Below, piece after piece: positions 23,010 through 26,737 of a stretch of DNA of 64,000 nucleotides. This stretch comes from Natronorubrum daqingense. GTDB lineage: Archaea; Halobacteriota; Halobacteria; Halobacteriales; Natrialbaceae. The notes below the pieces were generated by a model. That model ran no database searches, was not told the origin of the DNA, and worked only from the letters and a program-made list of their open reading frames with translations. Numbering within the stretch: position 1 is the stretch's first letter; every line of letters starts with the position of its first letter. Made by a program: the position numbers and the translations under genes. The stretch is from contig NZ_CP019327.1 of NCBI RefSeq assembly GCF_001971705.1, positions 2,170,001 to 2,234,000 on the forward strand, in the 5' to 3' direction.

Positions 23010-23993
23010 CTAAAACAGCGCCACCAACACTGCGAGCGACGCGAGGCTGCTGAGGAAGAACGCAACGAGGACGACGAGCGCGGGTGTCACGCCGGTATTG
23101 CGAAGGTCAGCGAGTCTGATTTCCGTTCCGAGGCCGACGAACGCGAGGACGAACAGCCAGTTGTAGGCGTTCTCGATCGAGTTCAGTTGGCCAGCGGAAA
23201 GCACGCCCGCGCTCGCGAGGAGTGCGAGCGCGAGGAACCCGAGGACGAACTTCGGAAACTCGTCCCAGAGGGTCCGGACCGAGGGACGACCGCCGCCGAC
23301 GTGGCGAGCGTAGTAACTCGCGTACGCGAGGACGACCACGCCGATCAGCGCGTTTCGTGACAGTTTCGTCATCGTCGCCCACTGGCCGGCCGCGTCGGAA
23401 TGCGCGAACCCCACGGCGACGACCGGACCCGTCGAGAACATCGTGACTCCGGCCCACGTCCCAAAGACGACACTCGAGAGATCCAACAGATCGCCGATGA
23501 TCGGATAGACGACGATCGTGATCGCGTCGAACAACAGGACCGTCGCGGCCGCGTACGCGATCTGTTCTTCGCGGGCACGAACGGCACCGGCGACCGCGAC
23601 GACCGCTGAAACCCCACAGATGCTGGCACCGGCTGCGAGCAGCGATCCCATTCGATCGGTCAACCCGAACACGTTGCGCGCGAGAAGTTCGACGACGAGC
23701 AACGTCCCAGCGGTCACTCCGACGACGATAACCAGAATAGGGCCGCCAACTTCGAGGACGGTCTCGAGCGAGATCGACGCGCCCATGAGGACGATTCCGG
23801 CACCCAGCCACACCTTGTGCGTCGCGATTCCTGGCTCGAGTCGATCGGGAATTCCGACCACGTTCGTCGCAACGAATCCGAGTGCGATCGCGAGCAAGAG
23901 GTGATTTACTCCGAACGAAACGGCGAGCACTCGAGCGACGATCGCGCCGAGACAGAGAGCCACCAATCCCGGGGCCAGCCGACTGACGTTCAT
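23010..23993 (-). CDS. YeiH-family (UPF0324) putative transporter
   Basis: Predicted 327 residues with about ten hydrophobic segments. Conserved family stretches visible are VWLGAGIVLMGASISL, LLAAGASICGVSAVVAVAGAV (the ICG-SA motif) and LFDAITIVVYPIIG. The family is often annotated as putative sulfate exporter, but the substrate is not established. I start at ATG 23993 because the open frame upstream is not protein-like. A 46-residue membrane microprotein gene ends four bases before this start. Confidence 0.82.
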   Translation of the reverse strand: MNVSRLAPGLVALCLGAIVARVLAVSFGVNHLLLAIALGFVATNVVGIPDRLEPGIATHKVWLGAGIVLMGASISLETVLEVGGPILVIVVGVTAGTLLVVELLARNVFGLTDRMGSLLAAGASICGVSAVVAVAGAVRAREEQIAYAAATVLLFDAITIVVYPIIGDLLDLSSVVFGTWAGVTMFSTGPVVAVGFAHSDAAGQWATMTKLSRNALIGVVVLAYASYYARHVGGGRPSVRTLWDEFPKFVLGFLALALLASAGVLSAGQLNSIENAYNWLFVLAFVGLGTEIRLADLRNTGVTPALVVLVAFFLSSLASLAVLVALF

Positions 23994-23997
23994 CGCG

Positions 23998-24138
23998 TCA
24001 CCACGGAATCGGGAGTTCGAACGCACCGACCAGCACGACGATAGCAACCCCGATGAAAACGCTCTGCCAATCACGCTCGAGCGCGCTCCAGCGATCCGTC
24101 ACGTTGTCGACGGGCGACCACAGGCTATCGATCGACAT
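23998..24138 (-). CDS. 46-aa single-pass membrane microprotein next to YeiH gene
   Basis: ATG at 24138 opens a 46-residue frame ending TGA at 23998. Residues 1-26 are amphipathic (SLWSPVDNVTDRWSALERDW) and residues 27-42 form one membrane helix (SVFIGVAIVVLVGAFEL), ending IPW. The stop lies only four bases before the YeiH ATG, so the two are almost certainly co-translated. Residue composition fits haloarchaeal membrane proteins. It may be a small subunit or stability factor of the transporter. The alternative, a chance frame, is less likely given the tight spacing. Confidence 0.6.
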   Translation of the reverse strand: MSIDSLWSPVDNVTDRWSALERDWQSVFIGVAIVVLVGAFELPIPW

Positions 24139-24473
24139 ATCTCTGTTCGCGCGACGGTTGCAGTTAACTGTTATCGATTCCGTCGCAGATACAGGAAATA
24201 TTCTCTTCTATCTACGACAAGGTTGCGGCAACGTATCGGACCTATCTATGATAACAATCGGCATATTACTGCTACCTACGACAGAATGACACTGAAATAT
24301 ACAGGTATTGCCGCACATGATAACGCGAGTCGACAGACTTCAGATCGAGAAAGAGAACACGTCGCTTCCGATCGCTCACGACACGCAGACCGGAACGAAT
24401 GCCGAAAACGTGTCCCCAGAGTCGTGGTCCGAATCTCTGCGTTCAAGCCAGTGAGCCAATCAGCGGACGGTGG
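24139..24473. other. Intergenic region upstream of the microprotein-yeiH pair
   Basis: 335 bp, AT-richer around 24165-24320. The minus-strand promoter for the microprotein and YeiH pair must lie here. No gene or repeat recognised. Confidence 0.5.
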
Positions 24474-26159
24474 TCAGCGGTCGACGCTTCCGAGCACGAT
24501 ATCCAGACTGCCGAGCGAGGCGATGAGATCCGCAACGTACTCGCCTTCTGCCATCTCGGGCAACGCAGAGAGGTTGTGGAAACAGGGGCTTCGAATCTTG
24601 AACCGTGCCGGCGAGTTCGAGCCGTCGGCACGGATGTAGATACCGAGTTCACCCTTGGGAATCTCGACCGCGCGATAGGTTTCCTTCCCAGCGTCGGGTT
24701 TGAGCGTTCGCGGGACGTTGCTCTGGACCTCCCGCTCGTCTTCGGGCCAGGCCTCGAGCACGTCGAGACACTGCTCGACGATCTTGGCCGACTCTTCGAC
24801 CTCGCGCATTCGGACGAGGACGCGACTGTAGTTGTCACAGCCGTCCTCGGTGACCACGTCCCACTCGAGATGATCGTAGTAGCCGTAGGGGTCGTCGCGT
24901 CGGAGGTCGTAGTCGATGCCCGAGCCGCGGGCGACGGGCCCGGTACAGCCGTAGGATTTGGCGACATCAGGCTCGAGAATGCCGGTGTCGATCGTCCGGA
25001 TTTGGAAGATTTCGTTGCCGGTGAGCAGGTCGTGGTACTCGTCGACTTTCGCGGGCAGTTCGTCGAGGAAGTCCCGCGTCTTCTCGAAAAACGCTTCACG
25101 GGGTTCGGGAAGGTCCCAGGCGACGCCGCCCAGACGGAAGTAGTAGAACATCATCCGCTGGCCGGTGAGGTCTTCCATGATGTCCTGGACGACCTCTCGA
25201 TCCCGGAACGCGTACTGGAAGATGGCCGTGAAGTCGCCGTAGACGTCGAGTGCGAACGTCCCGAGCGCGAGGAAGTGACCGAGCATCCGAGTGAGTTCGG
25301 TCGACATCGTCCGAAGGATCTGGGCGTATTCGGGCACCTCGAGGTCGGCGATGTCTTCGATCGCCCGGGCGACCGCCCACTCGTTAGGCAGGTTCGCCGT
25401 GTAATCCCAGCGATCCGCGTACGGAATGATCTGGTGACGGTAGGTCCCCTGCTGGCACATCTGTTCCTCACAGCGGTGGAGGTAGCCGATGTCGGGATCG
25501 ACGTCGGCGACCGTCTCGCCGTCCAGCGTCGCCTTGAGGTGGAGTACGCCGTGCGTCGCCGGGTGGTGGGGCCCGATGTTTAGTAACATCGTGTCGCTCT
25601 CGGCGACGCGGTGGTCGGGCTGGACCGGGTTGACGTGTTCCGCGAATCGGACGACTTGCGGTTTGTTCTGATCGTACTCGAGGGACAACGGGTGGCCCTG
25701 CCAGGATTCGGGGAGCAGGATTCGACGCGGATCGGGGTGACCCTCGTACTCGATTCCCACGAGGTCGAACGCCTCTCGCTCGTGCCAATCCGCCGTTCGA
25801 AACACGGGTTCAGCGCTCTGACAGACGGGGTCGTGCCGTGGGAGCTGTGCGATCAGCGTCACCTCGTGCGTTCGCTCGTCGTACTTCGTCACGTGGTAGA
25901 TCGACTCGTAGCGATCTTCGTACTCCTGTGGCGTGACACACGAGAGGTGGTCGAATCCGGCCTCGTCGCGCAAGCGTTCCAGTACCTCCTGGACGTCGTC
26001 CGGGCGAATAACGAACGCCGGTGCGTTCTCGTGGTCGTCGCGACCGAGCGCGTACTCCGCGAGCGCGGCCTCGAGTCGGCCCTCGTCGACGCCGCTCTCC
26101 CTTCGGTGGTCGTACTCGGGATCGATACCCGCCGGATCGTGGTGGTGCGTTTCGCTCAT
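24474..26159 (-). CDS. nuoCD: NADH-quinone oxidoreductase subunit C/D fusion, orphan copy
   Basis: Predicted 561 residues. Residues about 30-170 are NuoC-like (EREAFDLVGIEYEGHPDPRR) and about 195-561 are NuoD-like: NIGPHHPATHGVLHLKATLD, IGYLHRCEEQMCQQG, a GPVARGSGIDYDLRRDDPYGYY block and the C-terminus ASLGSLDIVLGSVDR. These subunits form the quinone-site core of complex I. The N-terminus is His-rich. In haloarchaea nuoCD normally lies among nuoA-B-H-I-J-K-L-M-N; none of these is nearby. This is therefore a stand-alone copy, either a paralogue or a relocated gene. Start ATG 26159. Confidence 0.85.
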   Translation of the reverse strand: MSETHHHDPAGIDPEYDHRRESGVDEGRLEAALAEYALGRDDHENAPAFVIRPDDVQEVLERLRDEAGFDHLSCVTPQEYEDRYESIYHVTKYDERTHEVTLIAQLPRHDPVCQSAEPVFRTADWHEREAFDLVGIEYEGHPDPRRILLPESWQGHPLSLEYDQNKPQVVRFAEHVNPVQPDHRVAESDTMLLNIGPHHPATHGVLHLKATLDGETVADVDPDIGYLHRCEEQMCQQGTYRHQIIPYADRWDYTANLPNEWAVARAIEDIADLEVPEYAQILRTMSTELTRMLGHFLALGTFALDVYGDFTAIFQYAFRDREVVQDIMEDLTGQRMMFYYFRLGGVAWDLPEPREAFFEKTRDFLDELPAKVDEYHDLLTGNEIFQIRTIDTGILEPDVAKSYGCTGPVARGSGIDYDLRRDDPYGYYDHLEWDVVTEDGCDNYSRVLVRMREVEESAKIVEQCLDVLEAWPEDEREVQSNVPRTLKPDAGKETYRAVEIPKGELGIYIRADGSNSPARFKIRSPCFHNLSALPEMAEGEYVADLIASLGSLDIVLGSVDR

Positions 26160-26737
26160 CGAACTTTCCTCCCGTGTTGAGATAGCACGGCACGCGTCTG
26201 CCGGAGCTACGGCAGACGGGGGGTTGAGAATTTTCCCGGGTCGCGCCGACAGTCTTCCCCGGCGGACGGTCACCTGTCCCAGCCAGAGCACGTCGTGAAT
26301 TTTCGGCGGGTTTCCTCCCAGAGCGCCGCCACAACGGCGAAATACTCCAGTCTCGCAGTCGAATGCAACGGGGCGTCTCGAGGCGCTCGAGCGCGTCGCA
26401 CTCGGCGAGGAGCACGACGAGTGTTGGAAACGTGTCGACGCCTTCGGCAGGGGTCACGGCGTGAGATCGACGGTGAAAGTCGGTGTGGAACACGGACACG
26501 TCTGAAAGCGCTTCGACCAGCCATCGGCCGGTATCGGCGACGGCACCGTCGAACCCCCTCGAGACGAGTCCGGGGGCTGTGAACCTGTGAACGCTACGTC
26601 GCGGGGCTGCACGCGATGGGGTCGAAAGCGTATCTGGTCAGAGAGCCGGCGAAAACTGTGCTTATACAGAGGATAAGGATCGGCAAGGCGAGCACACAAC
26701 CGAACCACTATCAATACTGCGGCCAATACCACGGCAT
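26160..26737. other. 578-bp stretch without a supported gene
   Basis: Lies between divergent genes. Several frames are open on the minus strand but are Arg- and Pro-rich and not protein-like. One (around 26290-26500) reads a mildly plausible helical stretch (PAEGVDTFPTLVVLLAECDA) but has no clear start and runs into the nuoCD promoter. I call it non-coding with low certainty; a decayed gene is possible. Confidence 0.4.

Follow-up and report, generated by a model that had tools for sequence, protein, structure and literature searches.

The 46-codon reading frame that stands before the YeiH-type transporter gene of Natronorubrum daqingense is a genuine gene, and its product is probably a dedicated single-pass subunit of the short-form YeiH protein, packing in place of the helix that is fused to the transporters of the PSE_2 type. 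The gene lies within the 64,000-nucleotide stretch of DNA that was analyzed (the window) as the first cistron of a pair: read on the minus strand from position 24138 to 23998, it encodes, from ATG to TGA, the single-helix microprotein MSIDSLWSPVDNVTDRWSALERDWQSVFIGVAIVVLVGAFELPIPW (46 codons plus TGA). The first-pass annotation had reported an ATG-TGA frame of 46 residues and had left its strand unstated; the frame is indeed present, on the minus strand, and the translation of the plus strand at 23998-24138 yields a polar stretch unlike the peptide that had been described. Likewise, the reported distance of four bases to YeiH is correct, as the spacer cgcg (4 nt; 23994..23997, minus strand) separates the TGA of the microprotein gene from the ATG of the PF03601 gene. 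A promoter-like GTTAA element is predicted from the sequence 30 nt 5' of the microprotein start (24164..24168, minus strand).

The neighboring gene (23010..23993, minus strand) encodes a YeiH/PSE transporter of 327 aa, identified by its profile match and delimited by the annotated start of a homologue; it is of the short form, which lacks the two additional helices at the N-terminus. Residues 8-307 match PF03601 (Cons_hypoth698) with 202.3 bits at a cut-off of 24.5, and the score of 110.7 bits against TIGR00698, the model that NCBI names "YeiH family putative sulfate export transporter," falls below its cut-off of 232.6. Hence, the protein is a PF03601 relative rather than a member of NCBI's YeiH subfamily proper, and the label "YeiH family" given to it earlier holds at the level of Pfam only. 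It is the single PF03601 gene of this genome, and a search of its sequence against solved structures found no relative. Upstream on the same strand, at a distance of about 335 bases, lies a gene of the NADH dehydrogenase 30/49-kDa type (26291..24474 in the window); downstream, after about 490 bases, follow genes that encode a substrate-binding protein and a pair of ABC permeases. On plasmid 2 of Halalkalicoccus jeotgali (L032:1-3645), genes of a tripartite tricarboxylate transporter (substrate-binding protein, TctB, and permease) are followed on the same strand by the microprotein and YeiH genes.

Upstream of YeiH genes in other haloarchaea, the place where the first-pass annotation had proposed to look for a conserved short frame, such a frame was found at 115 of 145 distinct places (118 of 148 rows) when about 330 nt before YeiH were searched with the microprotein profile at a threshold of 10 bits. 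Control scans of the same 148 rows gave 0/148 matches on the reverse strand and 0/148 inside the YeiH gene. A locus without YeiH (L029) and the window's own place (L002; the same microprotein is present in L001) had been dropped before this count. Because the loci from the best-frame-match fetch and L177 had been picked for holding a microprotein match, we give separately the figure for the other 119 loci, which were fetched by PF03601 alone: 89 of these carry an upstream microprotein. The best 30 frame matches among 61 genomes (its own and those of relatives) lie at loci with YeiH in 29 cases, the exception being L029. Among 391 genomes of the class, PF03601 is present in 234, and 202 are matched by the microprotein profile A1 at E-values up to 0.01; both occur together in 191 genomes, YeiH alone in 43, and a microprotein match alone in 11. 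Matches were thus obtained in 191 of the 234 genomes with PF03601 versus 11 of the 157 without it, and those 11 all have E-values of 2e-4 or weaker. Where genomes with two YeiH loci were examined, each locus was preceded by its own microprotein copy in seven of eight cases. Selection acts on this frame at the level of the protein: in 30 intact 46-codon copies, the median pN/pS is 0.66 when the true frame is read, compared with 1.16 and 1.13 for the two shifted ones, and protein motifs are shared by relatives down to about 30% identity. Seven copies judged by eye to be decayed (L022, L026, L171, L172, L155, L098, and L176) were left out of the profile and the pN/pS analysis, L001 was left out of the tree and the pN/pS count, and the duplicate places L168, L118, and L059 were left out of the later profile and the tree.

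The family that emerges from these copies has the consensus core RWTALERGWQAVLVGALIVALVALLGLQIPW and the core motif W..LE..W(Q/K)(A/S)V..G....PW. In the window's protein, the conserved core is formed by W17..L20 E21..W24 Q25, the predicted helix spans approximately residues 26-41, and PW stands at the C-terminus. Among the 110 intact copies, with starts chosen by rule, 31 have 46 residues and the lengths range from 36 to 62; PW is found at the end of 71 members, and [DGE]W[QKRIW][AGS] in 106. The single membrane helix proposed for the window's protein is the only one predicted in it, and a 16-residue stretch with a mean hydropathy above 1.6 is present in 107 of the 110 copies. The amphipathic start that had been ascribed to it fared less well: as many as 8% of shuffled sequences reach the helical moment of the window's N-terminal part, and the effect is modest in the family at large, with 25 of 93 members below 5%. 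Over the 110 members, the segment before the helix contains 388 K+R and 434 D+E residues, while the short tail contains 12 K+R and 3 D+E, a split around the helix that makes an N-in/C-out topology likely. Neither Pfam nor NCBIfam provides a name for this family, as the window's microprotein has no Pfam match and a best NCBIfam E-value of 0.08, and 26 members scanned against both collections gave nothing below an E-value of 0.03; our literature search turned up no publication describing a small protein that partners YeiH. The expectation that annotation would skip so short a gene proved true in part. There is nothing at the matching place in two of five haloarchaeal plasmid records, two others annotate a hypothetical protein, and in the fifth no feature is annotated across the match except for the CDS of YeiH, which extends over the end of the match.

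PF03601 transporters have been described in two forms (PMC8396727): one has 9 helices, and the other has 11, two of which are extra helices at the N-terminus. Such long forms are encoded by Archaeoglobus-like genomes, which belong to the same phylum, and by many bacteria. Their front is made up of a W..L...EDWWA..LG helix and a P..W tail (GWKEL.LKEDWWA..LG...P.KW); EDWW or DDWW occurs within the first 90 residues of 81 of 90 long forms, and E-D-W-W-A and the P..W tail are invariant in 71. The window's microprotein has E-R-D-W-Q-S and a terminal PW; it lacks the second Trp, which is invariant in those 71 long forms and is mostly Gln or Lys in the microproteins. Residues 4-306 of the window's YeiH match a long form from its residue 85 on (E-value 1e-27); the window's YeiH is thus itself without the N-terminal segment and falls outside PSE_2. 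A long form modeled with AlphaFold2 (pLDDT 88.7) has helices at residues 10-30 and 48-79, ahead of a portion (residues 82-445) that can be aligned with Na/H antiporters and folds of a similar kind. Consequently, the microprotein gene occupies the position that the beginning of a long gene would take up. In Archaeoglobus-like genomes (L038:962-5519 and L047:1036-6127), a gene for a PAS/DUF835 sensor-like protein lies between a short and a long YeiH gene, all three on one strand, and L047 has a second short-long YeiH pair close by with a 749-aa frame in between. In a member of the Nitrospirota (L183:196-2264), the gene for a long PSE transporter lies directly behind those for a histidine kinase and a sigma-54 response regulator.

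Profile comparisons are no more than suggestive of homology between the microprotein and the fused PSE_2 helix, a link that the first-pass annotation had not drawn. Against the N-terminal 105 columns of the long forms, the microprotein profile falls in register with the EDWWA helix (P 8.5e-4), and against whole long forms it gives P-values of 0.014 and 0.0083 and an hhalign probability of 3 to 5%; zone-shuffled profiles scored as high in 7 of 500 and 9 of 300 cases. When long forms were searched with the microprotein HMM, the top-scoring hit included the EDWW motif in 62 of 86 proteins (median score of these hits, 3.6 bits); the highest score among 80 hits to reversed decoys was 2.0 bits. Among the long PSE transporters (PSE_2, with 11 helices; Archaeoglobaceae, Nitrospirota, Desulfobacterota, and Proteobacteria), the W..L...EDWWA..LG helix and the P..W tail directly precede the same PF03601 core that follows the microprotein gene in haloarchaea. 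However, in the former the helix is fused and accompanied by a second extra helix, whereas haloarchaea have a separate 46-aa protein, no second helix, and DWQ for DWW.

These data lend themselves to a model in which the two-gene unit would produce a short-form (PSE_1-like) YeiH together with a single-pass subunit of 46 aa dedicated to it. This subunit would be made first, and translation of YeiH would follow at once across the gap of 4 nt. The N-terminal half of the subunit, which carries the W..LE.DWQ motif, would lie at the cytoplasmic face of the membrane, its helix would cross the bilayer, and its PW tail would end outside. The subunit would then pack onto YeiH at the position that is occupied in PSE_2 by the fused N-terminal helix (KEDWWA...P.KW), and could thereby help the scaffold side of the transporter to assemble, to stay stable, or to work, with a possible effect on transport. 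The earlier suggestion of an accessory subunit is thus still the best reading of a conserved frame before YeiH, although the physical association of the two proteins is something we infer from that arrangement.

A different kind of YeiH partner, one that is not the equivalent of the fused helix, is the most serious competing explanation, even if we judge it rather unlikely. The microprotein would then be a small regulator or inhibitor that binds elsewhere on the transporter in the manner of AcrZ or further one-helix modulators, and the likeness of the motifs would reflect convergence at the membrane interface. Such a reading accommodates a profile similarity that is suggestive at most, as well as the mismatch between two extra helices in the long forms and one in the microprotein; losses and decay of the gene beside a retained YeiH would also fit a dispensable modulator. 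It accounts less readily for the same place before the same core domain, for the shared W..L...DW..A...G motif with a similar terminal P.W, and for the fact that each paralogue has a copy of its own instead of sharing a single regulator.

The losses themselves can be followed in a tree of 144 YeiH rows, 28 of which are without a microprotein and 7 of which have a decayed one. The labels for absence and decay are scattered over the tree yet clustered, and the microprotein label needs 19 changes. No microprotein accompanies YeiH on the Halobacterium salinarum plasmid PHS2. In three loci from one genus (L022, L171, and L172), the microprotein carries substitutions such as Trp to Arg and Leu to Pro beside a YeiH that retains its full match. 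In these three and in L026 and L155, replacements of Trp by Arg and similar AT-to-GC changes are numerous, and the adjacent YeiH still matches well, as if the microprotein gene were decaying without stop codons. Losses and decay beside a retained YeiH imply that YeiH can do without the partner, or depends on it only with certain substrates or under certain conditions. Outside the class, the minus strand of an AT-rich locus (L056) from an archaeon that belongs to a different family of the phylum holds a 26-aa frame, MDRGWIAFLFGLIIISAILLGLKVPW, that ends in PW and lies 26 nt before YeiH; it is the shortest copy seen, and this place was the only match in a profile search of that genome (E-value 0.17). 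The same search of eleven other non-haloarchaeal genomes gave nothing better than an E-value of 0.12. Before 13 of 14 short YeiH genes from non-haloarchaeal genomes, the short frames were not microprotein-like, the fourteenth being L056, and the same was true of the short frames before short YeiH genes on Selenomonas, Leptolyngbya, and Bacteroides plasmids.

The tight spacing of the two genes raises the question whether the frame acts as a leader or short upstream reading frame whose only role is to govern the translation of YeiH through coupling or stalling, in which case the peptide would need no partner. The frame is always upstream, and in 100 of 113 cases it either overlaps YeiH or ends no more than 10 nt before it, 4 nt being the commonest distance (36/113). 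A promoter-like element just 5' of the frame would suit a leader as well: of the 114 stretches of 90 nt before the frame, 26 contain GTTAA (always between -30 and -37, and in 17 cases at -32), versus about 6 with shuffled sequences. This placement suggests a promoter ahead of the microprotein rather than of YeiH. In the window's family, CGACGGAATCGACAA..GTTAA(C/G)TGC is conserved about 30-50 nt before the microprotein start and is possibly a promoter plus operator. We nevertheless regard a leader peptide as very unlikely in view of the amino acid conservation with a pN/pS below 1, the membrane helix in 107 of 110 copies, the protein motifs that persist in distant relatives, and gap lengths (4, -1, 2, -4, -7, 3, 14 nt, and others) that differ in frame between species. 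The same variation in frame led us to reject a fused product formed by frameshift or read-through, as did the consideration that a helix ending outside could not run directly into a YeiH start inside.

It is highly improbable, too, that the microprotein is a small membrane protein with a task of its own that is merely co-transcribed with YeiH. That idea draws on the fact that a partnership with YeiH is what we infer, and on the decayed copies, which show that the two genes can part; the microprotein is, however, almost never found without YeiH (the 11 weak matches in 157 YeiH-less genomes), and each YeiH locus has its own copy in seven of eight two-locus genomes. The chance that the frame is spurious is virtually nil: although GC-rich DNA abounds in open frames (75 of at least 30 aa in 6.5 kb here), we rejected this explanation on the grounds of the upstream conservation with 0/148 in the controls, the pN/pS of the true frame, the co-occurrence with YeiH across genomes, and the copy in the AT-rich DNA of L056.

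The haloarchaeal pair, which we interpret as a transporter with its own subunit, can be set against several known systems. To our knowledge, enterobacterial YeiH of the E. coli type works without such a small partner. Like the window's YeiH, this short form (PSE_1, with 9 helices; E. coli and Salmonella) has a PF03601 core with no extension at its N-terminus. Salmonella YeiH is required for resistance to sulfite (PMC12880088). Within the literature consulted, we found no substrate for an archaeal YeiH; sulfite or a related anion is thus a putative substrate of the two-gene unit, carried over from the work on the enterobacterial protein.

One-helix subunits or modulators of membrane complexes are well represented by CydX, AcrZ, and KdpF, which have, like the microprotein, fewer than 50 residues and a single helix and are encoded with, or act on, a large membrane partner. 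The microprotein differs from them in matching no Pfam or NCBIfam family and in having as its putative partner a transporter of the CPA/AT clan. It would represent a new family with an uncommon trait, namely a likely fused counterpart. Tentatively, one may go further and picture haloarchaeal YeiH proteins as two-chain transporters, in which a scaffold helix that other prokaryotes fuse to the front of a long PSE transporter is made as a free peptide a few dozen residues long, with one dedicated copy per paralogue, so that assembly or regulation could proceed by adding or withholding one helix. If this holds true, the CPA/AT clan would gain a new family of transporter subunits that consist of a single helix. 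YeiH/PSE transporters are widespread and poorly understood, and a dedicated, mostly unannotated one-helix partner across an archaeal class would provide a handle on the assembly of their fold; the naturally fused, split, decayed, and absent states of the helix permit a direct test of its purpose at the N-terminus. At the same time, annotation can miss a gene that has been retained in most of a class.
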